DNA of 64,000 nt. Source: Amphiura filiformis (taxonomy: Eukaryota > Echinodermata > Ophiuroidea > Amphilepidida > Amphiuridae). The position numbers and the translations under genes were made by a program. The first letter of the stretch is position 1. Every line of letters starts with the position of its first letter. Location: positions 70,461,706 through 70,525,705 of the forward strand of contig NC_092628.1 in the NCBI RefSeq assembly GCF_039555335.1. Reading direction: 5' to 3'. Positions 1-43,120 of the stretch are shown here, piece by piece. The notes beneath the pieces are model-generated. The model searched no databases and had not been told where the DNA came from. It worked only from the letters and a program-made list of their open reading frames with translations.

Positions 1-3000
1 CTTCTATTTCAACTCGGGGAAGGGATCGCACGGTTGATAGAATAACGAAGTCCCATTCACTGCCTAAATGGGAAATAAATCAATGTTATTCAAAGTTTAG
101 CAGCGGTACTCTTCTATTGCCATTTCTCACTCAGTTAACTTATTAGCATTATTTGTCAGATAATACAATATGATAAAACATCCAAAGTTCAAATATCAGA
201 AAAATCTAGTTTTGAGAAAAAGCCTCTTTTGTATGGTAAATCTCTTTGATTTTTTTTCACAACTTAAAAGGGCTAGCCTATATTCCACCAAGAAAGCATC
301 ATATCAATTTTAAACCATTTCAAATGAAAGAACTGTTAAAGTAGGCCTATAGGTTTTACATTGATGTCAAAACAAAATGCCAAAATTAGGTCCACATTTT
401 TGTAGCCACTTGTTTTCATAAACGTTGGGGGTCATACAAACCCGTGTACCAAATTTGTCATTTTTTGTCACTCGTGTAACGATCTTCGCCTTGTTTGACT
501 TTAAAGCACTATACTATATGAATATTTTCAAGAAAAATGTTTGACAATAACAGTCCTACTTACCCTGGCTTTTAATGACTGTCCGTACACTGATATCATT
601 AAGGCCATATGAGCGTAGTTGGTCAAGTATCCTACTACACTGAAGCCGATACTGAGAGAGAACGACAATCCGAGATTCATCGAGGCCGCATCTTCTGACC
701 AAAGCAACTGCAATACGAACCTGCGATTATGGGGGAAAAGACTTAGGTACTTTAATGCTTCACATATAACATGTAGCCTAAACGTAAAGAAATAATATCA
801 TATCGATTTGATTTCTTCAAAGAGACGAATCAGATATATACATTTGAGAAAGGAAATATTGACAGTAAATATGGTGAATAGCCATCAAATGGATAGAGGG
901 AGGGGCATTGGAGATACCTTGACACTGGACATTGTCATCAATTTTACAAAGGGTCGAAGAGATAGGCATATTATATCTATCTAACTGTGTTTGCCTTACA
1001 TACACTATACGAATACTTTTGTTTCTTTAATATTTTTTGTCCAAACATGTATTGGAAGAAATATGAATTTTAGCTTGCATGTTGATTTTCTGAAATAAAT
1101 ACTTATTTCTGAACAATAATACTTACAACATTATTTGCTTCCTGCAGGTTTGCTTTAGACATTTCATTGCCTTCAGCCGTGCGGACACTTAGAGTTTCCT
1201 CGGGACCTGAACTATGACAGAACACGTGTGGAGCATCACCTGGCCATATTGGATGTCGAAGAGGCGATGGTCGTCGTCTTATTGTTTCAGGTGTCACTAA
1301 TTTGCCTCCGTAGAAAGCTTCCGATGGGAAATGACATATTGCCTGGTGCTGAACAAATCAAACGATTCAAACTTACAATTTTATTTTCAAAAAAGTATAT
1401 TCAGATCGAATGTTATTTCCAAAAAGTGCTTTCTGACTCCTAACAGCAATTAGGGTTAAAACTATATATAAATTGTTTGTTAGAGAATTAGGATTAGTGG
1501 TAAGAGTTAGAATTATTTATGGATAGGCCGAAGATGAACAATAACTTACCATGCGATATTGTATCGTGAGCATTCTCATTTCCCTCTTGTATCTCTCTAG
1601 CAGGGATATTTCCATTTCCAAGACTTTTGCTGTTGGCTCTTGAATGATTGGTCTGGAATTAAAACAAGTATGCTATATTTGAGGTGTGAATAAAGCAAAT
1701 TTGATAGTAAAGTGCTCTTTCCTGTCTCGGGATATCCTTACAAAAATATACTTGTGATGACAAATGAACACACAAATATACTCACAAACCAACCTGCCTT
1801 CAGAATAATACTACCACTAATATGCACACACCCCACCCCCACCCCCACACAGACCCCCCACCCCACATCACACACAAACACCCCCCATCCGCACACCAAC
1901 AACCCCCATACCCCCATACACACACACACACCGAGCTGCACGAAACATCTATTACTGTGCTGCTAATTTTGATGTGGGAATAGAGCAACTTTGATAGTAA
2001 AGTGCTCTTTCCTGTCTCAGGATATCCTTGCAAAATATAAACTTGTGATGACAAATGAACACACAAACATACTCACAAACCGATCTACACCCATAATACC
2101 ACACATTATACGTACACCCCCACCCACTCACCCCACATTCACATCCATCATGCACACCCCTCCCCCTACACACCCTCATATACAGATACACAAAAGATCT
2201 TTCACTGTCCTGCTATATTTGATGTGTGAATAAAGCAACTTTGATAGTAAAGTGTTCTTTCCTGTCTTGGGATATCCTATCAAAAGTAATACGTTTGATG
2301 ACAAATCAACACACATATACTCACAAACCAACTTGCCTTCAGAATAATACTACCACTAATATGCACATACCCACCCACGTAAAAGCAATTCACCACACAA
2401 TAACTCTAACACACCCCTCCCAACACACCATCATATTACCTCAGTTGTTTTGGGTCCCCAATCAACACGACTTGGACGGGATTTGAAGCAACCAGTGGAA
2501 TAAGTGTTTCAGGCTCACTGCACATTCCAGCTTCGTCTACAACACACTGGATTATGTTGCTTGAACGCCGTATACGAAAACTTCCAGCTGCATTGCAAGT
2601 ACACAATATCACTTGGTGCCTCTTAATCTCAATAGCCTATAATGGAAAAATGTGTTTGTTAAATAATTGTTACAACAATGATGTATAATTACAAACGACA
2701 GGCTCGCATGCTTGTCTCCGGACTTATCTTCACACTGTAGTTTATACACTTTTATCAAAATTTAAGGCTAGCTAGTAGCTACATAGATATAATGATTACA
2801 ATGTTTTGCTTCCTGAAACAAATAAATGATCATACCTCGGCAGCACTCACTAGCTTCCTGTACTCTTTGATCTCATCAGGCAATGGTTGATAACCTGTCC
2901 TGAATTTGATGTCATACGTTACAATTGCCTGACTGTTAGGGTTGGTCTTCTGTCTGATCAAGTGATGAAGTGAAATTTGCTTGTGACGTGGATCCATTTC

Positions 3001-4293
3001 GACATCACGAGATTCCAATTTGCCTGCTGGCTTTGGTTCTCCCGGAATCGGAAATTCATTGAATTCAATTGCTTTGCTGTAGACTCGAACGATGGAGATT
3101 GTTCTAGCAAATCTCTTGAGGTACTCTGTGATAAAGGTGACACGCAAATTAGATTTATTGCTATTGAAGGAACTTCTCTTAAAACAGCTTTTGTTTTCTA
3201 TAATGAATCAACATTTTGACAGACACCTTAATGCTTTCAATTATATATTTTCCCCAACCAAATAACGGAAGAAAGAAAACCGCAAACCTGTAATCACGTC
3301 CACAGATTTGTTGGAAGGTCCGCAGTAGAGTATTTGGGGTCGAAGGTCAGATGGAGGTAACTGCTGGTTGTGGAGACTGAAGAAGTACACTAGCTGTGCT
3401 CCGGTGACAGTTTTGCCAGTACCTATGTAGTATCACATGATGAAGAGTAGAATCAAAACATATAATTATTACTAAATACATATCACTTATAAAAAAAAGA
3501 GTAATCTCCTGAACTGATTTTCCCACAGCTTCTGATGTAAGTTAATGTTTGATGATTTGTGTTTTTGAATTGAGCATATATGAAACCTACCTGGTGGACC
3601 CTGAATCAGCGTGAATTCTTGTAACATGGCAGCTTTTAGTGCTTCAGTCTGTGAACTATTGGGATGAAAACGAGTGCCTTCAACGAAAAACTGGGTTCTC
3701 CTTCTTGCCAATTCCTTCAAAATTCCCATCAGCTCCTTTCGTTTCATTTCCGTCTTCATCTTTTTCTCCATCTTCTTTGGATTACCTATCTGCCGACCTT
3801 TATGACCTTGAAATATAAATAAAACATCTTGTGAATGGAAATTAGGGCACATCATGTCGCAATGCATCGGAAACATACTTTATTTGTGTACATCAGTCTA
3901 TATAACGTATAAAGACAATGCAAGTATTTCCACTATCGCGATACGCAGTTTTTACACATTCCCCTCCCTACCCACCATGAACACGCACATGTGAACACAT
4001 GATTGAATAGTTTTGTTATTCACTTACGAGTAGATTTGTCAGTTCCACTTTTCAGTAAGCATATGTTCTGAATCAAGTCGGGAGTATCGTCATTGGATAG
4101 GTTCTCCACTGCTTGCCGTAGTCGACTGTGATGTGAATAATAATAATAACATAACCAATGAAAAGAATGAAAACTGTATTTTATTACATAATATAGTTAC
4201 GGAGAAACGTATGTGACGATTTTGTAGCAATGTTCGGAGCACTGGGTATATTGCCGTAATTGAAATACGGAAGGTCTTACTGAAGGACCTAAC
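1..4293 (-). CDS. HELZ2: HELZ2-like exons 20-29: UPF1-like helicase 2, truncated by the window
   Basis: Exons 20-22 lead into FHPNSSQTEALKAAM (Q motif). The Walker A GPPGTGKT is split across the exon 22/23 junction (about residues 2830-2837). Exon 25 carries DEAG (about 3008-3011) and GDPKQL (about 3034-3039). Exons 26-27 join as LTIQYRM to HQAICHFPSEAFYGG (motif IV). Exon 28 gives VLSQYRLQC and ends SQG. Exon 29 reads SEWDFVILSTVRSLPRVEIE (motif V) and runs off at position 1, so motif VI and the stop codon are outside. Helicase 2 lies downstream of RNB as in vertebrate HELZ2. Intron 25 contains the three-unit tandem repeat at 1680-2438. Confidence 0.93.
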
Positions 4294-7200
4294 CTAGAAC
4301 AAAAACCTTTTTAGAGTTAAAACCACACCATGATTATAATAAAATCTAAATGAAAAAAGACACAATAGTTGGCCTAATGACGTTTTCCAGAAGGTTCTTT
4401 ATCTATGCAGATCTCTTATTTTCAATTGGATTTTTAAGTTTCCATATCTTACCTGCTAGGGTAGCTGTATGGGATGAACTCCACTGTCCACTCCTTGATT
4501 TCATTCCGTTTTGGTCTGATCAAACTCCTAGGAAAGCTTCCCATTGATGTCTGGTTCACTTCAAAAAAGATGGTAACCCTGTCTTTGGTTTCATCCTCTT
4601 TATTTGGGATCTGAGTGGCATCCGGGATGCAAGCATGTGCAACAAAGGTAACCCTTGTGGTTTTGTTACCAGAGCTTCTGGGTGTCTTAGCCTTTGTAAA
4701 AATATCACTTGGATTGCCGTCTGTCTTTGGGACCTCCATTGTTGAGTAGCGCAAACACAACCATGCATGTTTAAAGGTAGACAGGTCCTCGTAGTTGATG
4801 TGTCGTGCATCGCAGAATGCCCTAGTGAGAGAGAAAGATCCACACGGCAAGGTGTTCTTATCTTGTTGTTGAGGCTGCCACTCGATGTTTACACGCTGTA
4901 TGATGAAAGTGTTGTTCTCTGAGACAGAGCTGTAGGCGGACTCCATTTCAATAATGGGCAACCATGTTTTCTTGTACTGCAACAGGTTGGCTCTGTCCGG
5001 TAGTCTTTCCGCAACAGTGGTGAAACAATTCACAGGATCCGCGCGGTGTTCGAAGCAAAAATCCACAGACGGCGTAATGTTGAGGAGTTGAACACCGGGT
5101 GACAGAAGGCCTCTGGTTTTTGCAGAATGAAGTTGGACTGACAGGACATCACCAATGGCAAACGGGCGTTGGAAATTGACATACTGTCTACGTACTCTGC
5201 TGATGTCGTCCGTATTAATCTCACATGTAACATCTTGGACTGTGCCTTGTTGGTTTCGATTCGGATCTACACGTGCCAAATTCCGTTCCACAGCTTCGAC
5301 AACCTCACATGTTTTCTGAGTATCTTCAGTTGCAACAGCTTCCTGAAGTTCCTGCCACTGACTTACAGGGATTGTGTGGGTGAACCTTGCGTGTGTATCC
5401 AAATCTTTTGTTCCGAATCTTTGGTTTCTTCTAATATCGTCAGGATCCAAAGTATGTACGCCTGTCAAGCTGTAAACTCGTTCTTTCCATTTCATCGTTA
5501 CATTTCTGTTCTCCTCGACATTTGGACTTTCAATTGGCTTCAGCAAATTATACGGGACCTTTGCATTCTTGAGTGCCGGAAGAATTTCTGGAGGAAAGAT
5601 GACTTGGAAGGATCGAGGAGAAATACCTTCGATGAATGCATGGGCTTGGATTGGTTGACTCAATGCTTTCATTGCCATGTCTAGTGCGCGTGCTTTCAGT
5701 TCGAACTCTCGTGCTCTGAAGGCCTGGATATTGCACGTGTGACATATGTCCCCTACGTCTTCTTTGCTGTGGGGTGGTGTTTTCTTCCTGCCTATTGCTG
5801 CTACAAGTTGTCTGTGTGTCACTATGTCAATGTATCGTCGTATCGGCGAAGTGAAGTGGGTATATACGGCCATATCTAAACTTCCATGTGTATGTGCTGC
5901 TGTTATTCCTGAACACACGTATTCAGCTGGTTGGAGAATCTTGTGCAGCGCTGAGCGAATTGGAGCAAGCTGTGGATGGTATTGATCGGTACTGATGAGT
6001 CCAGCTAGACGAGTAAAGTCTTCAGTGCTTGCCGATACAATATTGTGCCAGATGTCCTTTGTAATGCTCATAGTGTTTGGTCTAGCACCCTGGTCATCTG
6101 CATCATCATTCTGTGCAATTGCGGCACACTGGTTTCGAAGAAGATCTTGACGACGTGATAGGGTCATACTAATGCCGATATTGCCCGAGTTGTTTCTCTG
6201 CCACTCTTGAAATTTGTCGATGTCAGGATTAGGTTGTCTGCGAAGAGGAGTGCACTCCGGATATGCATTCATAACATACTTTGCTACTTGCTCATTAGCA
6301 ATTAGCATCATTTCCTCGACCAAGCAATGTGCACGGAATGCATTGGCTGCTTCAATGGTACCTTCGTGCGAATATCGCTCGTTCTGAAGCCTTTGTTTCC
6401 TTCTTTCTGTTGCGAGTTCATGAAGTTTAGTTATTCGACATCTAACTTCGATACTTTGATCACTGTGATTTCCGGAAATGATATTCTCTGCGTCATCATA
6501 TGAGAGTTTGGCACTTGATGTTATTATTGTTCGCTCTATGCGTACGGTTTGGTCATCCACGTTACCCATCTCATCCATGGTAAAGAAGACTGACAAGGTG
6601 AGCCTATCCTGATCTGGAAGCAAACTGCAAAGGTTGGTGCTCAGATGAAGAGGAAGCATATGAATTGGTTCTGTGAAAGACGGATAGAAAGATGTCGCTC
6701 GAGCTCTGGCCTCTTTGTCGAGCTCTGAATCAATACGGACAAAGTAACCCGCGTCAGCTATATGAACTCCGATTTCATTCTTCTCGTTTGCCAACTTTTC
6801 GATACTGAGGGCGTCGTCAAGGTCTTGCGATTCTGGTGGATCTATGGTAAAGATGACGCGTTTTCTCAAATCTGTGCGCTTATTCTTGAGGATTTCTTCT
6901 TTTGGAATGACCCAATCTTCGGGGTAATCTTGAAGAACTTTCTTGGAGGCTTTGCTTTCAGAAACATCGTAGATATGTTTCAGGATCATTAAGCCATCTT
7001 CCAAGTTATTTCCCGATGGCAATTCTTTCGTTACCATGCCTAGTGGATATGCGAATCCTGGACTCCATTGCAGCCATTGAACTTTGAAAAGCTTGTGTGG
7101 ACGATCTTTGGTGCTTACTTCAATTTCACGGACACATACCGCCTTCCGATAACGGAAACGGCAAATTCGTACCACAAGAATTGCCTTTGACCTGCCCTTC

Positions 7201-10200
7201 TTGCCAGATCCACCCGGTTCTGGTCTCAGCACGTATATCTTGGGCAGATGTCGTTCGATTGGTACCATCAAATTATCTGTGAACGGGTCGGCTCGGCAAA
7301 CAATCTCCTTGTCGCGATATTCTATGAGTGGTGTCACTACCTCGATGACTTTTCCGTACACCTTGACTGGTTCATCAGGGCGACTCCAATCGGTGTTTTC
7401 AAGAATCTGAACTTGAACCTCATCCCCATTCATAGCTGTTCCTCTGTGGGTATTATTGCTTATACATATGTCTTCAATGTCTTCTCTTGGCTCTTTTGGT
7501 ATTGCGTATCGCCTGGTATCACGATCGATTCGAAACGTACAAAGAAGCGTTTCACCAGGCTGCGAACTGTCCTTGCGATGGCGTCTTTTATCTTCATCTA
7601 ACCGTACATGACCATCCTCTTCTACCATTACTAAAGTTGTGTCACGATTTCTCCTTGGTAACTCATCATCATTGGTATCTAATTGAGTGTTGTCAGTCAC
7701 TTCACCTCTATCTACCATTAGTTGACGACGAAGCTCTTGCAATATTATGTCATCTCTGTTTAGCTGATTATCGTCTTCTTCATCTGATTCTTCTGGAGAG
7801 ACTTCCGACAACGTGTCTTCATTGGTCACCTCTGACGCTGTGTCGGGGTTCTGGTCAGACCGCATATCACTTCTTATTTCGGGTATCTGTGTTTCGTCTC
7901 CTGTCATTCCCAATGGAACAGCATTCCTTTGACCATGGGTAGAATAGCCTCTCGAGTAACCTTCAGCAAATCCCAAAGCTGAGGTGCCTTCCAAACGTGT
8001 TGCTGCTCTATGGCTTCTAGCTCCTGTAGGAACAAAAGACTTGGCATGAGGATTCAATGCCTTCTGTGTTGATCTCTGCAAATCTTTGTATGTCACATCT
8101 CCATAAAGGCCGCCATTGTCTGAACATTCCTTTATGTAGCGCTTCCAGACGTTGCAACAGTCTCCGGCAGAACAGAGAGCGAATGGATCACCAACTACAA
8201 TAGCCAAGGATCGTGTTCTTGTGAGTGCAGTATTCAGCTCCTTTGAGTCTGACAGGAATCCCAGATAATCACCCGAGCCAGTCGACTGACTGTTGATTGT
8301 GTTCTGGGTTCTCACTGTGCTAATAATTACCACTCGAAACTGTTTGCCTGTACAAATATTTTTAAAAAAATATTCGTTTAAAAAAGAGCATACATAACAT
8401 TTTACTGCATGGCAGCAATGAAGTGTGACAAAATGTAAGTTTCAGAGCTTACCATGACCGACATTTATCAAGTCAAAGCTGAGTATGCAAAGTTGTCCAA
8501 TCTAAGAAGATGCTCACATAATATGCTATTGTCTGTTTCTGTTACATAACCTTGAGAAACTAACCTTGAACAGCTTGTAGCCTGTCTACAAATATCTCAC
8601 CAAGCTTGCTTCTCCGTAGCTGGTCACGTATCAATCGTACCTAAGCATAACATGTAAACCATCAATATGAAAAGAGCAATTCAGATATTTGTGATACAAA
8701 ATTTGAGTAGCATTATTAAATAAAAACTCATAGAAATTACCAGACGATATTAAAACCTTTAAGCTGTGTTGCTGGCAAAATAGACACACTTGCAATCCAA
8801 TCTGCCCCTACCGTTCAAAAAGATCAGTATGCCGGAATTACCGGCAACCACAATTTAAGGCAATAGTGCGCCTTAAACTAAGAATGTCTTTACAAGTTAT
8901 TTGTACTGACCTGTTGTTTGTACGGTGTGAGTACTCCTATTCCTTCAGGACATATCGGACCCCAATCAGCAGGCCAGTGCTGAACCAGCTCCTGTACTCT
9001 CCTGACAATCTCTTGTCCCTTTAGAGAGTCAACCAAAGAAGGAAATAGTGTCAACCATTTACTCGCTGAACATACTCAAGCATATCAACATATTCCTGAA
9101 TCTTAGTTCACTGGGTTGATAGGATGAACAAATTTTAATCTTTACCCGCTGGCTAATAATAATTTGTTCATATTCCTGAATCGTTTAATTAATATGACAT
9201 TATTATTGTGTGCTTTAAACTGGCTTGTCTTTATCTTTACATTTTACAGAATACTATTCAATAGCAAGTCGGTCAACTTCATTGTACGTGTATAGTTGAA
9301 ATCCTACCTCATATGCATTGATGTAAGAGGTCCCGAAGGTTTGGTCCTCTCCAAAGACTTCGCGAAACTCAAGCGGATACCAGAATGGGTGCTTTACCAG
9401 ATTACCACACGCTTCAATTTCGGCTGCTGTGTAGAAATTCTAAATCAAACCAAAAAAATAAATACCGCTTATAGGTGATTGTTGTCATATTCTCGATTGT
9501 CACCATAATGTGTATCACACAAATTTGTTGAACATACAGCCAAAATTGTTTCGTTACACTATAAGCTGTGTTAATTTAAAAATAACTCAAATATTTCCAA
9601 CAAACCCCGTTTTTTATAACATAACTGTACCTTTGAAAGAAATGTGAGAATTTCTGGGCATGTCCTGTAGTTGGCCGTCAGTAATATTTCTCGTCTGCAC
9701 TTCTTGTGTAACGAATGCTCAAATAATCTCTCCAGTAGAGATTTGTTCAAGTTCATCAGGCGCGCTTTTGATGAATATACCTATATGATAGAAACATTGA
9801 TGAAATATTTCTCATTCGTGCAAAATTTAGTTGCGGGTCAAACGTAGAAAAAAAGAAACAATTTGAAAGATACAAATGGTAGTGACACTACCTTTATATT
9901 AATTATAAAAGGTCGGTAATTATAAAAGCTGATGAAACTGTACTAAAACTAATCAAACAACCGGCGATCCAAATTTGAATGTGTACCCCTAGTACTCATC
10001 TGCTAATTGAACTAACAATGGCTAACAATCTCATAAGGTGGGGGAGGAGATATTTTAGGTTTTCTTATAAACCAATACTCTAATCATTTGAGTCGACAGC
10101 CTCTTACCTTTGGTCCCATTTGTAAGTGATCACCAGCTAGCACAATACATGTTCCTGTGTCTGCCAGCGCAAGAGGAGTGATGCATTCTGCCTCTAAGAT

Positions 10201-13200
10201 CTGCCCTGCTTCATCGATCAAGATATGTGTAAAATGACCTTTCAGCTCTGGTATTGCCGCCAGTTGCATAGCTGTTGTTGTTGTGGCAATGACAATCTGG
10301 CATGGTTTCACATCGGCTGCTCCTAGCTCTTTTGGTTTCTCTGGATTATCATCATCGAACAGAACGTACTGTTGCACTTTCGCAGAAATGGTTTCTTTCT
10401 TTCGCATCTCTGTGATGATTCGCCTCATTATCAGTTTCCCTTTGTGTTGCTTAACGAAATCATCAAAGAAATCTGTTATGTACAAATCAGCCGCACTGGA
10501 ATAATAAAATGAAAAACAACCCGGATAATCAATACGAAAGAGAACATTATGTGTATCCATAATGTAAGAATTAACTTTAGTTCTTAAGCAATGTAAATTA
10601 CACTTCATCGAGTAAGCCATGTTATAAACTGTCTATGATATCGTAACCTGAACGCCTAAGACGGAGACAAGAGTGAGAGAGAGCGAATAATGTTGAGAAG
10701 TTAACACAGATTACAACACAATATGTATGGATGATGCCACTATGTTTTCTCTAGAGACCAAAAGAGGGCTTCATTTGGAAATCACATTTGTGAGGAAAAC
10801 ACTGCTAAAATCTTACGGATTCGTGTGGGTACATATCAGGATTCTCGGTTGCTGTATCATATGAGCTCGTATTGTCTGCATGACAGCATTAGCTAGTGTA
10901 TACGTCTTCCCAGTACCGAAAGGCCCATAAACCAGCAAAATATCGGGTCCTTGTTGATGTTGTCGTCTCCAGCTGGATTCTATAAATCGTACAGCTCCCT
11001 TTTGTCTGCTGTTCATATCCTTGCTATCATCGCTTGGGTCTGGGCATCTATAGAAATGAATCAAAATATGTTAGGCATGTCATGCATGAATATCTAAGGA
11101 CACCGACTTATTTAGTGTATATACAACGTATATTATACATTGAACCGAAACCGAAAATATTAAATCAATCAACATCCAATCCCTCGCTTACTCCAACTAT
11201 GGTTACCTATACTACCAGTATGGCCTTCTTTTAGTCCTCTCCTCTACCATCTTTTATCACCATCTAACAACATCTCTATATACTCCCATTGTTCTTACTA
11301 AGAATTAAAAGAGTAACTATAGATGTGTAGAAAATATTATCGATCTGTGACAGCCAGTTGCAACCCCATTAGTAACCAGAAAATAGTGGTATTTAAAATA
11401 TTTGTATAGCTATCTCTGATACATCTACCTCTTAGTATTTAAAATATATATTTATCTACTTGGCTCTTACATTAAAGCAGGATGCTCATTTCTCGTAGGG
11501 AAAACCACATCAGGGTTTATTCGATCGACAGCGAGATGCTTTCTGCAGAATTGTAGCCGATCGACACAGAACTGAATCCCAACATCTACCTTCGTTTTGA
11601 CTCTCTCAAGCAGGCTCTCTTGTGTAATACACTCGGAACTCAGACAAACAAAGATACTCTCTTTCGTCAGACCACCTTCGTGACTAGTCATTATCTCTGC
11701 TTCGTAGACTGTGTCAGATGAAGCATCAAACTGTAATAAGATGAACTGGACACTTGTTAGAGCGATTTGGCTTGCTTCTGAATCCCCAAATATTGGTTGA
11801 GTGATGTCAATCTGCCCGAATAGTTGTCCAGGTTGAGCAGGTACTAACGTTGTGCCGGCAAATGATTCCATTAAGGCCACGTCTGTTATCAATATGGTCG
11901 TTTCATGTTTGAAGCTTTAAAGAATGAATTTGAAAACAAAATATTTCGTCATATGAGCGCAACACAAACGTATATCTGCAATAGTTGCTCGTGCAATAAG
12001 GTAAAATTGAGATTAGGGATCCGGCTCCTCCTGAGATGGTTTTATGGGACCTGACCGAGCTGCCCTAAATATGTTCTGCTAATCAAGTAGTGAGGAGCCA
12101 GTTTGGTCCACTGGATATAGAAGAATGAATGGAAGGAAACCTGGACGACCCACCCGAAGCATGGATGGGAGGAAGCATGGATACCGAAGCATGGATGGGA
12201 GAAAACCTTAGCGACCCACCCTTACTCATACATTGACATCCTCAAGGAAGACATCGCACTGGAGGCAACATGTTTCAAGAAAGCGATACAGGACAGAAAT
12301 CGTGGAAAGTCTTTGTGGTTAGGGACAATCACCCACCATAAGTAAGGAAATAAGAAATAAGCAAAAATCCACACCAACATAGTTAGCTGTTATGTTTGAT
12401 TTTTATCTTTACACATTGCTGTAACTATATAAATGCTCTTGAAACTGATGAAACTCAAACAAAATATGGAAGTTTCATAAAAAGATTTCCAAGAAAAGCA
12501 TCGCGAGATTTCACATAATTTGCTGAATTTATGGTTAGAAACAAACACACAACTGTATTAATGAGTAACTTCAAATTCACAGTTCACCTTACCTGGCTAG
12601 TCTTTCCACGTATTCGTTCTCTTCCAACCGCAACATATGATGCATCACATGCTTATAGTTGCTGATGTTTAACTTGGTCTCACCAGTACTGTCAATCTCA
12701 GCCTGAAACTCAGAGAGTTTGTATTTGGGTTCTAACTCTTCGCATTCCTTGTCCGGTCTTTCACAACGGATAACACGGGTATTAGCGCTGTTCCACAGCG
12801 GTTGACACACGTTGGATGGGGTTTGCGGAATGGACTCTCCACCAATGCTGACTGAAAGCTTTCGTATCAAGACCGGCTTCTCATCAAAATCAAACACGAT
12901 CCATTGCTTGAAGATACCCAGCATGTGTGACTCAAACTTCACAGTGATTTGATAGTGCGTCTTCTCATCACGCTCGTGTTGACCTATAATCGCACCGGGA
13001 CAGACTTGTGGCTTCTCAGCATTCCGTGGGCTTGAAAGGTGGAAGTGCGTTCGGTATGAGTCGTGAAGTAAGCCAACACGTTTGAGTCGTTTCTAGAAGA
13101 AAGTAATGATGATTAAACAGGTAATTTCGGGGAACCGTCACCATAGGTCATTGTTCCAGATATTTGTAATCGAGGGGAAGTAAAGGGTAAACACAGTGAC

Positions 13201-16200
13201 TAAGGGAACACGTCTGGACTCTCTTCACAAATATTAGTACAAACTGCCACTTTATTTGGAAGAAGGGGTACAGAATGAAAAAGTCGTGAATGAAGGGCAT
13301 AAAAGCCCCTTCCACGTCGAGCTACACCACATGAATCGTTACATAAATTATACATAGCCAGATTCTCATTTGTGGGTCTTTATATGATTGAAATCTTAGA
13401 TATCTCATATCAATCTTAATACCATTCAACAAATAAACATTATTGATTATGTGAAATGGTTCTTATTCTACTCACTCCATTCGAGGTCTTGATGGAAAAG
13501 TTCCAGGCTACAGTACTGGAACTATCCTTCTTTTTGACGTGGTCTGCTACCGCAATACGTTGGGTAAGATCATTGTTGCACTTTACCTCGACACTCACAG
13601 GGTCTTTCTCGGTCATCTGAAATTACAAAACAGACTTTACGAAACTATCCCAAACACATACACCACAGTTATTATGTATGTCCTTGACACTGACTCTGTA
13701 CACATTGAAACTATGATCTGACAAAATGGCCTTCAACCATTTTATCAATATAATGACTACTTACAACATCTCCTTCTGACATTGAAAAGTTGTACTCTGC
13801 CAGCAAGTCATCCATGAAAGAAAACATCTTCTGCATCTTTGCTTTCTTCATCTTCATCCTACGATAACTGTGTCTGTCTTGCCATTCCTTAAGTTCATCC
13901 TTACTGTGCGCTCTAGGGCACGGATTGTCATCAGGGTCCATATTGGAGAAATTGCAAGTTCCATCTGAGGCACTGTGAAGGAAATCAACAGAAATATCTT
14001 ATTGAAATGTTCGTTCTTGTATTGCCTTTGTTTGTGATTACATACATGAAATGAACTGAAAGGTAACAGATTGATCTGATAGCAAAAAAGGCCCCGATTC
14101 AATTTCAATAAAGTTGTTGCTGTTTATGGTGTGTGATAGCTTGGGTACAAATGCTTTAATGAGGGGAATGTTTTCACAAAAGCATAGTCGGCTATAATTA
14201 CCTTTGGCAAAGTGTATATATCCCATTGGTGACATTGGATGGAGGATCGCGGTACTTCCATGGTCGATCACTGTCAGATGTTATGTTGGCTTTATGATCT
14301 CCAGTATTGATGTGATCTTCAAAAGCAGTCTTTTCAACGAAAGACACGTTGCAGTAAGTGCAGCAGTACCCATCGCTGGTTTGCGGCGATTGCTTCACTT
14401 TCGACCCACAGTGCGAGACAATATCGTCGTATGAAATGTTTCCTAAACCCCATATCTGACGTTCAAAATCATTGTGGGCAAATTTGCACTTATCTTCCAA
14501 ATGGCAAACCGATGTCACGTACCAGCACATTCTTGCTTTGCCGTAAAAAGCTTTTGGTCGTGATCGTATTTTGACTGGAGCTTTGCCTTTGGCTCCCGGC
14601 AGATAAGCCATCACTTTTGCAGTGGACCATGGGTGTCGCTTTGGATTATTGCAGTGGTTTGCCGTTTCATGTTTTCGCGTCATCTTGGGGTATTCTCCAG
14701 ATAAGCAGTTATTGCAGAGGAAGGTGACACTACCAGGCTTTGTGTTTATCATACGATCCAGAGAGGTTTTAATCATGGACGTCAGTGGCTTTGTTTTATT
14801 TCGGCTTGGTTGGGTTGGTTGATGTTTTTGACGCTGCGAGGTGGGCTTTCGCGTCGAGACTGACTGCGAGACTGGCTTAATATTTCTGTAAGAACGGTAT
14901 GATGTACATTTAGGCCCGCTCTTGGATTTACGAGAACCAACAGTTTCCCATTCTCCTGGTACTGCTGCGTCGTCGGTGCCTTTATAACTGCCAAACATAG
15001 AATCTTTAAAAAACAAAAGATTTAGAAGTATAAATCATTCATTAAAATATAGGCATATCCCACTGAGCTCATTAACTTCAAAGCTTATAGTCTTTACACC
15101 ACGTCACACAAAGTTTCCAAAAACCATTGAAAAAGGAAGCAAACCGAACAAAATACAGTGGCAGCGAACGATTAATTGTTGTTTAAATTGTTTGACAATT
15201 TTCTTTGAAATTTATGATCATTAACCATGAGAGATGATACACTGAATAGACTTACAGTGTGATTCGGTTTCTGTTTGAGCTTGACCTATTTCAGATTCTG
15301 TCTTCCAGCTAGCGCTGTCTGATTCATCAGAACTGGAGGCTGCAAGGGTATCGAATACGAAGTCCAATTCTGCAACACTGGAGGACTTTTTTTTTTTTTT
15401 TTTTGTACTATGCTTTGGTTCTTGAGCCACGTCTTTGTCATCATTTCCGTCTTCGTCATCGCCGGCATCGTCGTCATCATGGTCATTATCGGCGGCATTA
15501 GCGGCTAGAAGCAAAATAGTCAAACTTGGCCTTTATATTTCAAATGCACATACAAAGTGAGATGGATTAACCTCTGCGCTGTATGCGTGCATAACAAATG
15601 AGATGTATTAACCTTCGAGCTGTATAATTGTTATGTTAGGGACCGTTCACAAACACTTGTAAGGAGGTGCCTGATGCAAAAAGGGGGGGCTGAAAATTTT
15701 TGACCCTCCTAAGGGGGAGGTCATGAAAAAAATGACCACAAATTTTCCTGGAAAATTGAGTTTATATGCTTTTCTATGGGTTTGACCCATAATTTTCATG
15801 TCAAAAAGGGGGGCCCTGAAAATTTTGAGGTCTGTAAAGGGGGGCCCCGAAACATTTTCGCGATGAAATTTTTTTGCATCAGCCCCCCCCCCCCCCTTAA
15901 AAGTGTTTGTGAACGGTTCCTTATGTATAATGGTCGCCGGACATCGCATAAAAGTGATGTTTGCTTGGGTGGGAGCAGCTGGTGGGGCGACCGGCACATC
16001 AGTCAAGAAATCATATACAACACAAAAATGCGAGACTAACCCGTGCGGCGACTAATACTAGCGGTATTGTTATGCAATACGCCTATTACCTTGTGGGAAT
16101 TAATCTGGCTACACTGACTTCCGATAGAGAACCCAAGGATCCACGTATATTGTTATTTGGTGCAATAATGCTCTTTTTTATATCATTGTAATGAGTATTG

Positions 16201-19200
16201 ATGTCGACATTATGTAGGCCCTACCACTGCATCAGGGTAACTGTTCTTACCATGATGTATGAATTTGTACTTCTTAGAAGCCCGCTTTGGTTGTTGACGA
16301 GATCCCTTGCCTTTGCCTCTGCCTTTGCCTTTCTTTTTGCCCTTCTTTTTCTACGTAAAATGAGTTGAAAATAAAAGTGTTAGGAAAATACCGTGACTCT
16401 CGCTATATGATACATAAAACTCGCTATATAAAACATGATAAACAAGCACATTTCCATATACTAGTATATACATGATAAACCTATATATACATGATATGCA
16501 TGATTCATCAGAATCCCAAGATCAAAGTCGTAAGGTATACACCTTTAAAAGGTTGATCCCTATATCTTACTTATTAAAAAAAAGCGCAGTGATTTATAGT
16601 GCGCTACGCACAGGCACAACGCCTAGACGTTGATCCACAAGCCTCAGCACACTTTTACTGGTTGTCGCTGACCACTACGGCCCCACATCATTCCATGAAC
16701 CATTTAACAACAACTCATGGACTTTGTTGCTACAAGAGAGCGCACATCCTAGACATTCCACAAATAACCCTCGCAACCAGGATCAGCTCCCCGAGTTTCG
16801 TACGGGTTACAATGAGACAATTAGCAGTAAGTTCCTTGTCCAGGGGAATTGCAAGCTAACTCATTTTTTCCACGAGATCGTATTACTGATTAAGCATCGC
16901 CAGGGTTCGAACCCGCAACCTCTCACCCCATAGTCGAACGCCTTATCGATTGAGCTAACTTTATCATTGTCAGAAAAAGTACGAACTTGGAGGAACCATA
17001 GACCCTAGAAAGAATGGAGGAACCTACCTTGGCTTTCTTTGATTTCTTGCCTGAAGAACCGGTCGCCTTTTCCCCACCAACTGCTCCCACCCAAGCAAGC
17101 ATAGACGATTCACTGTCACTTTTATCCGATGTCCGGCGAGGATGGCGGGCATCCGACTTTGGAATGTCCAGAGCTTCCTTTATTTTCACAATATCAGGGT
17201 GTGTTTGTGCCTGAAAACAACCATTACATGTTAAGTATTTAAATGTGTGATCAAAATATATCTTCAACAATAATACAATTCATTTGCAAAGTTAGTTTCA
17301 AATAATTGTCAAAGAAAGGTTTAACCAAAATTACGCGCAGCTATGACCTTTGAGCATGAGCACTTCTTTCATCTAACAGGCTTGACCTTAAACCTCTAAG
17401 TTAACCTTACTGACACTTCCCTGCTGACCTTGAAACTTCTAACCGCTATGACCTTGAAGCTTTCAACTAACCTAGCTGACCTTGAAACTTTAAACAATTT
17501 CTTCGGTAAACTTTTTGACGCAGATTTCCAATTTTGCATACTGCACATAAGCATTTTATCTATGGCTACAGCGCAGTGGTGTGGATGCTATATGATCCGC
17601 TCCCTCCACTCGGCTGCGGAGAATACTATAGCTATTAATGAGTGTAATGTCTATAAACATGTTTATTACACTTACCGCGTGTGTCAACTCACAGATCATT
17701 TGACAAATGGTTACAATTTTGGCCTCAAGAGTCGGTGGGAAAGAAAGACCTTTTTGAATCAGTGTAAACATCGAAAGTACCGGAAGGACTTCCATTGTAA
17801 TGTTGCTGGGATCCACTGTAATAACTAGGAACAGAAAAGGAAAAAATCACTAGTTCTCAAATGATTTTGTAAATACAGGCCAGGGACCACAATGTAGGGG
17901 ACCAAAATTTGGAGACAAAATATTGTGTTTGGGAACAAACATAACATCTACTGCAATGATTTACCCTTCCTGTCTCCCCCATCAATCAATGTTGGAACAC
18001 ATTGAGAACTGCTGAAGACATTGGTATTTCTCAACAGAGGGGGTGACAGGTTTTCATTCTTTGCACGAAAGTGTTCCAAGACTTATTTCCAAGATTGTAG
18101 ATCCGATCCAATTATGTTGCTGTGTCCAGGGGCAGCAAAATGTAAATCCGGCCCGGTGTGAATAGAAGAATGGGAGAGCGAGTTGGCGCAGCGGTAGTTC
18201 CTTCGCCTTGCACCACTGAGGTCCCAGGTTTATATGTGCACTTAGTTTATCCCGATTCCATGCTCGCTCTCGCGGGTCTTCTCCGAGATCTCCGGTTTCC
18301 TCCTACTTTCAAAAAATCGATGATCAGTAAGTTGTTTGGTTATCAAAAAAACTTCCTTACCAATGGAATTTGGAGAGCTGCACAGATAATTGGTGGATGT
18401 TTAATACAATCCATAGTGCGGATATAGGTTTGCACTGCAACCGGCCGCGGCCTAGTTGATGTGATCTGATTGTGATGATTTACCATGGCAGCGAAATTGA
18501 AGCGTTTTGAATCCTCTAAGATCTAGTGACTCGTTACAATACTGGTATTCCTTTTTATCAAAACTAAAAACTTACCTCGGTAACATTCCTCAGCTCCACG
18601 ATTAAACCATATTGCTTCAACTTGGCTCTGGACAGCTCCATTAGGGATACACTGGGCCTGAAAAAAAAGGCACTTTGCTATTAATTTATCCTTATTTCGT
18701 AATATTAATCCTTGTCTTACTCGTGTATTTTTGTTTGGTTCTCCGCTTTACTAGGGGGATTGTACTACCCCATGCATTTCTGTATCAAAATCCCTTATAT
18801 CGACTGCTCACTGCACTCATAGAAATGACTTGTTCGCCTTGTTGGCGCAATTCAAAAGGAGTAAGTTTGGACAACTCAAAATAGTGTAAAAGCCAAAACA
18901 AAATTCATTTTAGTTATCCGAACTTAAAAATGCTGAAAAAGCTCAAAAGTTCCGTCAACTAATCAACTTTGTTGACATTACTTAAAAAGTTGATGTAAGT
19001 CGTTGCGTCAACTTTTTAAGTAATGCCAACTTCTGAATTCAAGTTCAGGGAACTTAGAAAAATATACAAGGTCCAAAGAACCAATTAGTTGAGTTATTGT
19101 AACTCCACATGTAAGTTGATGTAACTCGTTCATATTAAGTTACTGGTACTTATTGTTTTGAGTTATTCCAATTTGGTACTTTGTTACTTAATTTACGTAA

Positions 19201-22200
19201 TTGGATCATTTTCTGCACAATTAGCAGTATTCAAATATTTATTTTTGTAATCAGTGCAAAATTTTGTATACTATAGCACACCTCTAGAAAATTATGTTAG
19301 GCTAGTTTCATTTTCTGAGTTGTAACAACTCAATAAAGTAAGTGCAAATGAGTGCGACCAACATAATGATATCGAGTCAGCGTTACTCAAAATTGTACGC
19401 GTTGGCATTACTCGGAAAGTTGACGCAACGACTTACATCAACTTACTGAGTAATGCCAACGAACAATTTCTATAAGTGTGCCAGAAGTGGGTAAGTGCAA
19501 ATTGCATAAATACACGTACTGCCAAAAATTAAGAATAACTACGGGTAACCTCATCAGGGGCGTAGCCAGGATAAACAAGACTCTAACTCGGGCTCTACAC
19601 TCCCCCCCCCCCCCATCTCCAACTTGAGTACAAAATAGAGCGAAGTGAGCGTATCGAGCCGGGGTATCGAGCGGAGCGTTTCTCGGCGTGGGGTTCAAGA
19701 CATCATTTTCGACATTATTCGCAAAAGGTTATAAAAGGTTGTCAGAAAACGTTTAAATGTCGGGTTATATAAAGGGTATATTAAGAGTATAAAACGTATT
19801 CATAATCTTAAAAAACATTTTTTGATAATCTACTTCTCAGCAAACAAAAATGTTTTACAGAAAACGTTTAAATGTCGGGTTATATAAAGGGTATAAAAAC
19901 GTTTTAATAACATTTCAAAAACATTCTTGAAAACTTGATACAAAAAATTCTAAACAGAATGTTATTTTGGGGTTGAAAAAATATTTTGCGAAAAATGTTT
20001 GCCCAAAATGTTTTCAATAACGTTTTAAAAACGTTTTCATGACCTTTATATAACCCGACATTTAAATGTTATTAAAAAAAAAAAAAAAAACATTTTAAGA
20101 ACATTTCTGTGCTTGCTGGGTTCAAATATTTTAACATAATGTTATTTAAGTATTGACACAATATTTTGCAAAAATGTTTGCAAAAAGTGTTTACAATAAC
20201 ATTGTTTGAAAACATTTAAAAATATTGTTGTAGTGTGTTTTCATACAAAACGTTTTAAAACGTTATCATGACCTTTATATAACCCGACATTTTAATGTTA
20301 TTAAAACGTTTTACCTAAACCAAAAGCCAAAATATAACTTATTTAAAATGTTTTTAAAACGTTTTTGTGTTTGCTGGGTACATATTAGAATGATCTGAAA
20401 ATGTATATAATTAAGCCTGTAATTTAATTGTAAATAGGTGGGAATAAAAAACTCTGTGTAAACTCTTGATCTATACTCAAGGCCCGTGTTTCTGTATATT
20501 GAACTTGCCAATGTAGCCTACTTTAGAACAAAGAAAAAAAATATGCATTAAAGTATTTTGGAAACCTTATTTCTTCATCTTTTTTTATTTATTATCTTTA
20601 ATCGAGAATGGATTTATACCCATAACCCAAGTGTCTTTCAGTATTATACATATAATTATTTATAATAATGTTCATTTTGAAAGACGGAAATAATGGAAAA
20701 GGATTAACCGAAACTGGACAAACATTATATATACTTACAATATGAAAACAACATTCAGCAAAACCTTGGTTAAGAGAGAAGTCCGCTTCATTTTTGCCGA
20801 GGTACTTATTCAAATTGCGACCAGCACCAAATAGACAATACGAATCGTCATAATGTCCACATTGTTGGAAACATTTTGCAATTCTTTTAATATCCCGCTG
20901 GAGAGTTTGGACGAATACGCGAAGCTGAAACAGTTATAAACATATGATCAATATTAAATGTGATTGCTTTTAATTTTCCCAACGTCGGTGTTGTTTGGCA
21001 AAAAAAAGTGCAGCTTCACGGCGGCGTCGATGTGGTAGGGTATTCTAAAGGTACTCCAAATAAAAATTCATTCTTTATGCGCGATCATTAATAAATTTTA
21101 TTAAAATCATCCATATAGGCCTATGGGGTCAAAAGTCAACTTTCATTACATATTGACCACCCCTCGTATACACAAAAAATATTAGTTTGCAGACTAATAA
21201 TCATGAAGCGAGGGATAACAAAAAAAAATCCTATACATTTTAATCGGGCCTATACTCTACCTGTATATTATTGCAATTAATTACTGAGGATGTTGTTGGT
21301 GGGTGTTTTTTGTTTTTGTTTTGTTTTGGTTTTTTTGGTCTTTTTTTCAGGTACCGTACAGTATAGACAAAAGCACACGAAACGGATCCTGTTTTTTACA
21401 TTTAGCTGTCTATATTGATATATTACCGATGCTGATTTTATTATGTGGTTGCTTAATTTTTCGTTTATTGCTTTATTTTGCTCTATAATTTCATTTTAAT
21501 CATGCTCTTTAATATTAATCCTAAAACTACGAGGTGGGTTGTACCAACCGTCATAAAAAAAAAACGCGCGTTTACGCCCAAACGACCTAAGCTAATCGCA
21601 GATCCATTGCGCTCATTTTAGCGATACAATTTGTACCCCAGCACCTTACCCGTAGGCCTATCTTGAATGTTAGGACCATAAAAGGAAGCTATGAAAAGTT
21701 GGTTCTGATTACTTACAATTGGTCCATCAGGTAATAGCGAAGATCTGTAAATAAGTGATAAATGTTTTGTTTCAAAAACAAATACAACAAAAAATACAAC
21801 AACAAAAAATCCAAGGAGTTGTTTCACATAAAGCTTAAATATTTTGTTTATAAAATTCCCTAGTGTGCCAAGAGCAGTTTGAATTTATATTAGGGACCGT
21901 TTACAAACACTTGTAAAGGGGGCTGATGCATAAAGGGGGCTAAACTTTTTTCTATGGGGTTGACGCTCATTTTTTATGGCCAAAAAGGGGGCCCTGAAAA
22001 TAATTTTAAGTCCGAAAGGGGGACCCTGAAAAAATATGTGATTTTTTCTTTTTGCATCACCCCCCCCCCCTGTTACAAGTTTTGTGAACGGACCCTTATC
22101 GTACTAGGCCTACACATATTTAACGAAGCAACTTTGAATTGCCATGTTAATAATTTCTGCATTGGATAGGCGTATGTGTGGGCGTATGTCATGTTAAACT

Positions 22201-22500
22201 GAATTGAATGGAATTTCAAATGAAAGACAAAGACAGTGCAGTTACCAATCAAAATTCATAAATTCGACACAGCTTTTTATGCCAATTTCCTTCCGAGAAT
22301 CAACATTTATAAAGCGGTTTATGGAAATAACTAATGGCGAATAATGCAATCACGACCAGGCATCATAAATTTAATAATAAAACTACTAGGTTTACATTAT
22401 TTTATTTTAAGACAAAAAAAGAGAAGAATTGTACAGACTCTAGAAGCTCAAGGCGATCGTACACGCCATCCAGGTCGGCTTGATTAACTCGATGTGCCAT
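1..22500 (-). CDS. HELZ2: HELZ2-like double helicase / RNB exoribonuclease, 29 exons, 3' end outside window
   Basis: Exons (minus, 5' to 3'): 22500-22435, 20924-20739, 18657-18576, 17824-17676, 17210-17028, 16350-16251, 15504-15256, 15003-14202, 13972-13765, 13616-13476, 13092-12593, 11914-11471, 11047-10817, 10495-10108, 9780-9631, 9439-9308, 9018-8911, 8640-8565, 8347-4453, 4293-4201, 4125-4028, 3806-3591, 3422-3288, 3125-2836, 2636-2440, 1652-1550, 1348-1127, 720-564, 63 to beyond 1. Every intron is GT-AG and every junction keeps frame (9,664 coding nt, about 3,221 residues). The start ATG has A at -3 and G at +4. Domain order zinc fingers, helicase, RNB, helicase is diagnostic of HELZ2. 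In vertebrates HELZ2 is interferon-inducible, acts as a nuclear-receptor coactivator and has RNB exoribonuclease activity. The function here is inferred from that family. The weakest points are exon 1 and the N-terminal exons, which rest on splice sites and reading frame rather than known domains. Confidence 0.93.
1680..2438. repeat. three-unit tandem repeat (about 250-280 bp per unit) in HELZ2-like intron 25
   Basis: Units start near 1684, 1970 and 2217. Each begins with GTGTGAATAAAGCAA-like sequence, then GATAGTAAAGTGCTCTTTCC and a GTGATGACAAATGAACACAC-like stretch, and ends in a variable CA/CCCCA-rich tract. Unit lengths differ mainly through the CA-rich tract. No coding potential; chance open frames here are low-complexity. 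Confidence 0.9.
4453..8347 (-). CDS. HELZ2: HELZ2-like exon 19 (3.9 kb): end of helicase 1, acidic linker and RNB exoribonuclease domain
   Basis: This single exon encodes about 1,298 residues (1399-2696). It opens with helicase motifs V-VI and runs through an acidic Ser/Asp/Glu linker (about 1560-1600). A cold-shock/OB-like section precedes the RNB catalytic domain. RNB signature IDPPESQDLDDAL has all four metal-binding aspartates (about residues 1901, 1907, 1909, 1910) in the D-x5-D-x-D-D spacing of RNase II/R. The second signature TSPIRRYIDIVTHRQL (about 2231-2246) retains the catalytic arginine. An active 3'-5' exoribonuclease is therefore predicted. The acceptor is tacag at 8348 and the donor AGCAG|gtaag at 4453. 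The exon is far larger than its neighbours (76-802 nt). Confidence 0.95.
8565..13616 (-). CDS. HELZ2: HELZ2-like exons 10-18: pre-helicase region and UPF1-like helicase 1
   Basis: Exons 10-12 encode a beta-rich segment ahead of the motor. Exon 13 carries Walker A GPFGTGKT (about residues 1078-1085) with the Q-motif glutamine upstream (MNSRQKGAV). Exon 14 carries CTHTNPAADLY (motif Ia), Walker B DEAG (about 1208-1211) and GDHLQ (motif III, about 1235). Exon 15 gives TANYRTCPEI (motif IV region), and exons 16-18 continue to the QGKQFRVVIIST strand (motif V) completed in exon 19. Motif VI, LNTALTRTR, is also in exon 19. All core superfamily 1 (UPF1-like) residues are present, so ATP-dependent RNA unwinding is expected. 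Intron 11 holds a LINE 3' remnant at about 12100-12345. Confidence 0.93.
12100..12345 (+). mobile_element. non-LTR retrotransposon 3' remnant in intron 11
   Basis: Frames of the plus strand read GRPTRSMDG and then YIDILKEDIALEATCFKKAI followed by QDRNRGKSLW. This resembles the extreme C-terminus of LINE reverse transcriptases (a -YIDxL..D-L----L--A--DR..W- pattern). An imperfect ACCGAAGCATGGATGGGA duplication lies near 12160-12200. It is a short, decayed fragment. Confidence 0.5.
13765..15003 (-). CDS. HELZ2: HELZ2-like exons 8-9: zinc-finger region
   Basis: Exon 8 (802 nt, about residues 339-605) carries three candidate zinc-binding sites. A C2H2-like C-x2-C-x11-H-x4-H lies near residues 435-455. 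A CCCH-type C-x6-C-x5-C-x3-H (CWYVTSVCHLEDKCKFAH) lies near 498-515. A second C2H2-like C-x2-C-x12-H-x5-H lies near 553-575. Exon 9 adds another possible Cys/His cluster (C-x11-C-x3-H) and ends in a Lys/Met-rich helix. CCCH fingers usually bind single-stranded RNA, and CCCH plus C2H2 fingers upstream of the first helicase are typical of HELZ2. The PGEWETVGSRKSKS segment near the exon 8 start may be a short interaction motif. Confidence 0.88.
15256..16350 (-). CDS. HELZ2: HELZ2-like exons 6-7: charged low-complexity linker
   Basis: Exon 6 (16350-16251) is almost pure Lys/Gly/Arg (KKKGKKKGKGRGKGKG). It is followed in exon 7 (15504-15256) by an Asp/Glu run (DNDHDDDDAGDDEDGNDDKD), a six-lysine run and a Ser/Asp/Glu segment. 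The junctions are phase 1 on both sides (CAT G to CC GCT, and CAC T to AT TCT). The basic tract may bind RNA or act as a nuclear or nucleolar signal, and the acidic tract may be disordered; both are inference. The poly-lysine codons form a long A-run (T-run on the plus strand near 15387-15404), a spot where polymerase slippage could shift frame. Confidence 0.8.
15636..15923. mobile_element. G/C-run MITE copy 1 (intron 6)
   Basis: Ends are inverted: GACCGTTCACAAACACTTGT at the left and its near-complement at the right, bounded by TTA on both sides. Inside are A/T-rich segments and long G and C homopolymers, including a C-run at about 15883-15896. The element abuts the inverted exon 5 copy. A second copy is at 21890-22098. 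Confidence 0.8.
15928..16012 (+). pseudogene. inverted partial copy of HELZ2-like exon 5 inside intron 6
   Basis: The plus strand here closely matches the sense strand of exon 5 (17028-17210, minus), including CGCCGGACATCG, TTGCTTGGGTGGGAGCAG and CAAGAAATCA. The copy is therefore inverted relative to the gene. It has lost several short segments and is out of frame. It directly abuts the G/C-run MITE at 15636-15923. It is a dead exon fragment, but in the pre-mRNA it could pair with exon 5. Confidence 0.85.
16576..16966 (-). mobile_element. tRNA-derived SINE (intron 5)
   Basis: On the minus strand the head at 16966 reads TTAGCTCAATCGATAAGGC (box A-like), followed by GGTTCGAACCC (box B). The tail near 16576-16640 has a TATAAATCACTGCGC-type end followed by a T/A run. 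A related fragment (GCGCAGTGATTTATAG, GACGTTGATCCACAAGCCTC) is at 58826-58880. Confidence 0.7.
17028..22500 (-). CDS. HELZ2: HELZ2-like exons 1-5: N-terminal helical region
   Basis: Five exons encode about residues 1-222, beginning MAHRVNQADLDGVYDRLELL. The region is mostly amphipathic helix. Stretches such as AEECYRVITVDPSNITMEV resemble tetratricopeptide (TPR) repeats, though I cannot confirm a TPR by eye. Exon 5 starts AQTHPDIVKIKEALDIPKS and ends in a Ser/Gly/Lys-rich tail. Exon 1 joins exon 2 in phase 0 (LELLES to LRVFVQTL). Introns 1-4 are rich in repeats: a G/C-run MITE at 21890-22098, CAGCAAACAC-family copies around 19700-20380, a hairpin MITE at 18950-19465 and a SINE at 18172-18530. 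A protein-binding role for this N-terminus is inference. Confidence 0.75.
18172..18530 (+). mobile_element. tRNA-derived SINE, family A (intron 3)
   Basis: The head is GGCGCAGCGGTAGTTCCTTC (box A). The box B region is degenerate (AGGTCCCAGGTTTATA) and part of the tRNA-like 3' half is deleted. The body is shared with 35356-35773 (TTTATCCCGATTCCATGCTC, GAGCTGCACAGATAATTGG, CCATGGCAGCGAAATT). It lies antisense to the host gene. Confidence 0.85.
18950..19465. mobile_element. MITE with hairpin ends (intron 2)
   Basis: The left end (18953-19031) and right end (19396-19462) are inverted copies of one 60-80 base unit. Each unit is itself a hairpin (GTTGATGTAAGTCGTTGCGT in the loop region, flanked by inverted AACTTTTTAAGTAATGCC). 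The centre is rich in AACTCA/TTGAGTT words. Confidence 0.8.
19560..19700. mobile_element. fragment of a GGGGCGTAGCCAGG element with C-run
   Basis: It starts CAGGGGCGTAGCCAGGATAA and contains a C-run at 19602-19614. It is cut off near 19700 by CAGCAAACAC-family sequence. A similar end (CAGGGACGTAGCAAG, with a complementary GATACGCCCCTGG) is at about 39133-39292. Confidence 0.5.
19700..20380. mobile_element. CAGCAAACAC-family MITEs, at least two overlapping copies (intron 2)
   Basis: Diagnostic pieces are CAGCAAACAAAAATG (19837), GTGCTTGCTGGGTT (about 20110) and TGTGTTTGCTGGGT (20365-20380). Internally GTCGGGTTATATAAAGGGTA and its complement TATATAACCCGACATTTAA repeat many times, with ACGTTTTAAAACG words. 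The leftmost copy is truncated. Confidence 0.85.
21890..22098. mobile_element. G/C-run MITE copy 2 (intron 1)
   Basis: Same family as 15636-15923: left end TTAGGGACCGTTTACAAACA, right end the complement CTTTGTGAACGGACCCTTA-like, with internal GGGGGCTGATGCA and CCCCCCCCCC runs. It is shorter by about 80 bases through loss of internal sequence. Confidence 0.8.
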
Positions 22501-23515
22501 TTTTCCTCTGAAGATTAAAACAAAAGATATTTATTTCAATTAATTGCGCAGCTGTAGTAGGCCCTATAGTATCTACATTTAAATAGTGGTGGTATTGCTA
22601 CTAGTATTAACAGCAGTAGACTACTATTACTAAAGATACAAATTTCAAAACCTTAAACCATGTTTACACTACTGTGCAGAAAAAAAATACATCCATTATG
22701 TAAAGCTTAATACATTTTGTATAGTACCTATAAATTAATACAAAATTATCTACCTTTAAGCGTCACAGATTCACAGCCATGATATGACAGTCATGTTCAA
22801 CTGGAACACCGTCACCACATGAATAATAATATACCGTCTGGTCCAGGTATTTGTCTGGTAAACAGGTATCTTGTGTACGGTATTTATTCTGTCAGAGCTC
22901 TACATAAATTTGTCCCAAGTGTAAACTTGAATTCCAAATATAAATTACTAACACCAATATTCCTGATATTTCTCAAACCTTTTAATCAATTTCCTACTAA
23001 TATTTCATGATGTTGTCAATTTCGTCAAATAATCATAAGACTGCGCAAAGTGGCTTCCGCTAAATCATGCAATATCTACAATGACGTCATCACAACATTG
23101 ACAGTGAACTTAATGACCCGAAGTAAAGTGCTTAATTTTGTAGACTGATTAATATTCACAAATAGACAAATAATTGTTGTATTTTAGATTGGTATTTTAG
23201 GCATATTTACAGGTGCAATGTGCATGCTTAGTAAACCACGCAATAAAACATTTCATAATTATGATAAAATTATAATCACCCTAAAAAGTCTTCTTTACTA
23301 ACGAAAATATAAACTAAATATAAAATGCTATAACTATGAAGAATCAAAGATCAATTATGAATACAATGTAAGCAAACAATGATCGACTTGGTAATAATCA
23401 TGTTTACAAATATTAATACGTGTAATATGACTGTGTTAAGATATACTTGCAGGTTGCAAGGTCAGTGCAATGTTAAGGATGTGTATTGTTATTAATTTAT
23501 CCTTTTTTTAGTTAT
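22501..23515. promoter_or_regulatory. 5' flank of the HELZ2-like gene; no specific site recognised
   Basis: This AT-rich stretch upstream of the start codon (22500, minus) should contain the promoter and any 5' untranslated exon. I see no interferon-response-like element or TATA box that I could defend. A non-coding first exon further upstream is possible. Confidence 0.3.
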
Positions 23516-23862
<347 letters not shown>

Positions 23863-42960: not shown

Positions 42961-43117
<157 letters not shown>

Positions 43118-43120
43118 GAG

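Follow-up and report, generated by a model that had tools for sequence, protein, structure and literature searches.

We asked what protein is encoded on the minus strand of a 64,000-nucleotide stretch of Amphiura filiformis DNA (hereafter the window), in which two helicases flank an RNB exoribonuclease domain, whether its catalytic centres are intact, and what it could tell us about HELZ2 before interferon.

One open frame across 22 predicted exons

To delimit the gene, we ran a splice-aware predictor on the minus strand, which gave 26 exons at its strict setting and 53 at its loose setting. Our model keeps 21 of the strict-setting exons, discarding four weak upstream exons and a 5-base terminal exon, and adds the window-edge exon 63-1 from the loose setting; exon 8640-8565 was extended manually from a three-frame reading. 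The window is free of any N. The 22 exons, running from 15504 to 1, join into one frame of 2919 aa that contains no stops (155 and 203 stops in the two alternative frames), with GT at 21 of 21 donors and AG at 22 of 22 acceptors. As a guard against circularity, we gave the predictor only the RNB exon as training data and compared its scores with those of 20 Markov-1 random sequences per region. The retrained predictor scored 148.4 over 8400-15600 (random maximum 39.8, n = 20; plus strand 24.8) and 76.3 over 1-4440 (random maximum 5.3, n = 20; plus strand 7.7), and gave 3.2 to 13.2 in two control regions on both strands.

In the single 3.9-kb exon 8347-4453, which sits in a frame without stops between 8441 and 4449, helicase 1 ends and the RNB domain lies in full. 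Because motif VI and RNB lie in this one open exon, the linkage of helicase 1 to RNB is independent of splice prediction; that of RNB to helicase 2 depends on introns and linker exons that were predicted. The left edge of the window (position 1) cuts the gene inside helicase 2, directly after VIKSQGSEWDFVILSTVRSLPRVEIE and before motif VI. The features, in the direction of reading, are as follows.

17210-17028 and 16350-16225, minus strand: putative extra 5' exons outside the 22-exon model, from predictor score; low complexity
15256-15504, minus strand: first exon of the model, tentative, rich in acidic residues and lysine, of low complexity; in frame with GT/AG, on weak evidence
14202-14979, minus strand: exon with zinc-finger-like motifs, from the joined frame and Cys/His spacing
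14722-14633, minus strand: C2-H2-like motif, read by eye
14530-14474, minus strand: CCCH-like motif, read by eye
14362-14294, minus strand: C2H2/jaz-like motif, read by eye
From 14212 into the following exon, minus strand: additional CCCH-like motif, read by eye
12593-13972, minus strand: region N-terminal to helicase 1 in the joined frame (exons 13972-13765, 13616-13476 and 13092-12593)
8565-11914, minus strand: helicase 1 exons (11914-11471, 11047-10817, 10495-10108, 9780-9631, 9439-9308, 9018-8911 and 8640-8565)
4453-8347, minus strand: single exon with helicase 1 motifs V/VI, OB_HELZ2 and the complete RNB domain, followed by matchless sequence
7335-7565, minus strand: OB_HELZ2 (PF25049), Pfam 37.0 bits against a cut-off of 29.3; residues 22-98 of the Pfam query
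5793-6878, minus strand: RNB (PF00773), Pfam 254.3 bits; residues 251-612 of the Pfam query
4125-4028 and 3785-3591, minus strand: linker exons ahead of helicase 2, containing NSSQTEAL and the beginning of its Walker A
1-3422, minus strand: helicase 2 exons (3422-3288, 3125-2836, 2636-2440, 1652-1550, 1348-1127, 720-564 and 63-1)

Beyond the 5' end of this model, the same predictor scored 52.3 over 15510-19500 on the minus strand (random maximum 10.4, n = 20; plus strand 15.7), and on this score we dropped the reading that nothing upstream of 15504 is supported. Because the region outscores all 20 random sequences, the HELZ2 gene, or another minus-strand gene, probably continues upstream of 15504. 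The coding-like signal on this strand reaches to about 18700-18820; 19500-24500 taken alone scored 0, that is, without coding signal. Two of the predicted upstream exons (18515-18361 and 18302-18214) fall inside a repeat at 18171-18526 that is held in common with 35355-35728, others are lysine-rich and of low complexity, the exon set varies with predictor settings, and none of the upstream exons passed a homology test. The initial annotation had described 29 exons joining in frame over a gene ending at 22500. The joining stands, for 22 exons and 2919 aa with no stops, but neither the figure of 29 exons nor an end at 22500 was established, because the upstream exons lie partly in repeat and their set shifts with the settings. 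The higher figure may be correct in part.

The RNB exon

Within TIDPPESQDLDD, the four RNB aspartates are spaced 0, 6, 8 and 9, with codons starting at 6842, 6824, 6818 and 6815; the arginine lies in TSPIRRY (codon at 5840). In an alignment of 42 bacterial RNase R proteins, taken from among the matches listed, each of the 42 has the same four aspartates and the same arginine. In assembling this sample, at least 587 of at least 599 candidates were confirmed and 80 were kept; GVHIAD stood in an open frame in 71 of the 80, of which 70 were 600-1000 aa long; 43 fell below 60% identity, and all of these but one, omitted by oversight, make up the 42 aligned. The record titles were mostly of Bacteroidetes-type groups. 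Since the search for loci used two patterns, of GVHIAD type and EEFMLLA type, the sample is biased towards well-kept RNB domains; the catalytic aspartates and TSPIR lie outside both patterns.

Searching the PDB with the exon ranked DIS3L2 highest (E 5.1e-55), followed by DIS3, DIS3L1 and RNase R. The N-terminal flank alone aligned with the first OB/cold-shock domain of RNase R (hhalign against the 42 sequences, E 3.8e-06, probability 87%), and the rest of the exon alone gave no alignment with RNase R. For an S1 domain, the expected region alone gave a probability of 0.3% against RNase R. The whole-length profile comparison with RNase R spans residues 10-712, through the expected S1 region, and because that region alone gives 0.3%, the RNB core may account for this part of the alignment. 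The final 304 aa encoded by the exon had no PDB match up to E 5, its final 460 aa had no Pfam match, and NCBIfam matches (RNase R and IGHMBP2 family) were all under their curated cut-offs. A published study says that HELZ2 seemingly lacks cold-shock and S1 domains (PMC9839780).

Two UPF1-like helicases

Catalytic motifs in the helicases and in RNB bear their usual names. The Walker A motif of helicase 1, GPFGTGKT, starts at 10926, with the DEAG glutamate at 10212, GDHLQMGPK at 10134-10108 and ANYRTCP at 9675-9655; its motifs V/VI, ELNTALTRTRS (8240-8208), lie in the 3.9-kb RNB exon. Helicase 2 has a Walker A motif, GPPGTGKT, that is split by the intron between exons 3785-3591 and 3422-3288, a DEAG glutamate at 2534, an intron-split GDPKQLRP, IQYRMH, VIKSQGSEWDFVILSTVRS and VIKSQG. 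Pfam scored helicase 1 at 119.2 bits for AAA_12 and 73.9 bits for AAA_11, and its top PDB match was UPF1. For helicase 2 the scores were 140.7 bits for AAA_11 and 112.6 bits for AAA_12, the latter ending at profile position 162 (positions 3-162 of 195), as expected where the window edge cuts the gene, and the PDB returned a NAM7/UPF1 match (E 2.2e-38).

The RNB and UPF1-like helicase domains that had been proposed for this locus were thus recovered by profile search, with RNB, AAA_11 and AAA_12 all over their Pfam cut-offs. The accompanying claim of intact catalytic motifs holds for every motif read in the window (both Walker A lysines, the DEAG boxes, the four aspartates and the TSPIR arginine), but motif VI of helicase 2 lies beyond the edge.

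The intron between exons 2636-2440 and 1652-1550 contains diverged copies of one unit (1671-2376), which are 81-91% alike. Walker A look-alikes at about 2349-1676, GYPKTGKN and two instances of GYPETGKS, were set aside as repeat copies in this modelled intron, noncoding in the model.

Zinc-finger-like motifs at the N terminus

The CCCH/C2H2 fingers of the initial annotation can be read by eye from their Cys/His spacing, but they score below the Pfam cut-offs (zf-C2H2 16.9 bits, jaz 16.4 and CCCH 12.1). By offset arithmetic that ignores insertions, the first two motifs, on human numbering, would sit at -101 to -72 and -37 to -19. An upstream extension of HELZ2 with two zinc fingers, conserved in Bilateria, is described in a published study (PMC11317171), and it is to this extension that the two motifs would map. 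The region at 12593-13972 gave a weak match to the MOV-10 Ig-like domain (13.6 bits, under the Pfam cut-off).

Other features of the window

A class C GPCR gene lies at 55106-52047 on the minus strand. Its long frame, 55106-52992, matches ANF_receptor (203 bits) and 7tm_3 (89.7 bits), the remainder of 7tm_3 lies in a second piece at 52565-52047, and NCD3G is under its cut-off. Together with the introns, this neighbour points to an animal as the source. At 44193-42529, also on the minus strand, is a degraded partial copy of this GPCR, whose pieces are 50-95% alike and in different frames, several with stops. A 2.1-kb repeat forms an inverted pair (29080-31203 and 48743-50883; 92% identical; longest open reading frame in the first copy 93 aa) and is possibly a mobile element. 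A tRNA-Thr was called at 43118-43191 in two predictions, and a tRNA-Cys at 35360-35432 in one only; the stretch holding the latter recurs at 18171-18526, so this call may represent a short repeat of tRNA origin instead of a true gene. Long AATT and AAAG microsatellites occupy 23556-23860 and 42962-43117.

Identity of the gene and alternative explanations

Over the one joined frame, Pfam places helicase 1, OB_HELZ2, RNB and helicase 2 in the order of HELZ2. A study of the human protein names K550, E668, D1346, D1354, D1355, K2180 and E2361 as HELZ2 residues (Nat Commun 2023, PMC9839780), and the spacing of the corresponding catalytic residues is 125 here against 118 in human HELZ2, then 692 against 678, 8 against 8, 1 against 1, 888 against 825 and 173 against 181. 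The HELZ2 identity that had been assigned to the locus was upheld: because OB_HELZ2 exceeds its cut-off and both the residue spacing and the domain order agree with HELZ2, the gene is very probably a HELZ2 orthologue, and its product would be an ordinary 3'-5' exoribonuclease of the helicase-RNB-helicase type.

We weighed this reading against three others. Since predicted introns and linker exons are what joins the RNB exon to helicase 2, the locus could comprise two adjacent genes, a helicase 1 plus RNB transcript followed by a separate downstream UPF1-like helicase. Frame and splice sites join across this interval without a stop, the distance from RNB to helicase 2 is close to that in human HELZ2 (888 and 825), and the family-specific OB_HELZ2 is present, so that we regard two genes as highly improbable. 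A gene of HELZ2 type that is no longer functional, or that is broken in its C-terminal part past the window, is also very unlikely. Its 3' end does fall outside the window, and the degraded GPCR copy means that the same window holds pseudogene pieces, but the 2919 joined codons run without a stop, every modelled intron has GT/AG borders and each catalytic residue sought within the window is kept.

Descent from the bacterial antiphage helicase Mokosh MkoA, instead of from cellular UPF1-like helicases, would agree with the PADLOC MkoA matches of helicase 2 (162.2 bits) and helicase 1 (141.4 bits). A yeast UPF1 (NAM7) fragment, used as a control, scored higher with the same model (230.4 bits), so the match reflects the superfamily at large; a specific Mokosh link was rejected on this comparison (230.4 against 162.2 bits), and we consider such an origin extremely improbable. 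In searches for relatives in viral contigs, none of 7 and none of 35 candidates was confirmed, and OB_HELZ2, sought in a bacterial genome and in 14 controls, matched nowhere, controls included, which makes that search uninformative.

A possible mechanism and the second aspartate

Under the HELZ2 reading, and by analogy with the family, the N-terminal zinc fingers would bind RNA, the two UPF1-like SF1 helicases would spend ATP displacing duplexes or proteins, and the central OB-RNB exoribonuclease would digest the RNA thus released in the 3'-to-5' direction. Candidate substrates are RNAs that are structured, viral or transposon-derived. The balance between the two activities has been addressed for human HELZ2, in which helicase mutations weaken LINE-1 restriction more than RNase mutations do (PMC9839780).

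The second RNB aspartate of the window protein corresponds to human position 1352, which is untouched in the human RNase-dead mutant. Huntzinger et al. in 2023 are said to have found human HELZ2 active despite a substituted catalytic residue. We infer that this substituted residue may be position 1352; if so, the window protein would keep the older state. A tentative proposal, which we think somewhat less probable than its opposite, is that the exonuclease of ancestral HELZ2 was fully equipped, with a complete four-aspartate RNB centre and an OB domain of DIS3/RNase R type, and that the human lineage later lost one aspartate. If this were true, the nuclease would have been the primary function before interferon, and vertebrates would have shifted weight to the helicases, a shift that is hinted at by the weak LINE-1 effect of RNase-dead human HELZ2.

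HELZ2 outside vertebrates and comparison with known systems

Non-vertebrate HELZ2 is already published: in addition to the upstream region conserved in Bilateria, authors have annotated helz2 in a mussel (PMC13401447) and HELZ2 in a sponge (PMC11229196), and in an earthworm HELZ2 is one of five gene families in which the proportion of genes differentially expressed during regeneration is raised (PMC7253469). The HELZ2 entry of a helicase table is apparently filled only for mouse and human (PMC12511879), and HELZ2 is absent from the main text of a planarian paper (PMC7117911). The idea that HELZ2 is older than interferon is therefore not new, and evidence for it is already published in these sources. 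The content of the window bears directly on neither interferon nor defence; an ancestral defence role of HELZ2, as the initial annotation suggested, is conjectural. Alone, the window gene is one more member of a family known outside vertebrates. If expressed as modelled, it would offer an apparently intact animal HELZ2 to compare with the human protein on the second RNB aspartate, and its division of labour between motor and nuclease could likewise be compared with that of human HELZ2.

Both window helicases match UPF1/NAM7 best in the PDB and have the SF1 motifs of UPF1/NAM7 and IGHMBP2 in common; those proteins have a single helicase and are not known to have an RNB domain. With DIS3L2, DIS3 and RNase R the window protein shares the RNB core, and its first OB/cold-shock domain aligns with the RNase R counterpart, but it differs from them in its two flanking SF1 helicases and in the absence of a detectable S1 domain. 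DIS3 and RNase R proper are defined by a CSD-CSD-RNB-S1 arrangement without helicases. The two flanking helicases rule out DIS3/RNase R proper as an assignment, with OB/CSD1 detectable and S1 not. Human HELZ2 (Q9BYK8) has both the helicase 1-RNB-helicase 2 order and the catalytic spacing in common with the window protein. Its RNase-dead form is the triple mutant D1346/D1354/D1355, whereas the RNB domain of the window protein has four aspartates.
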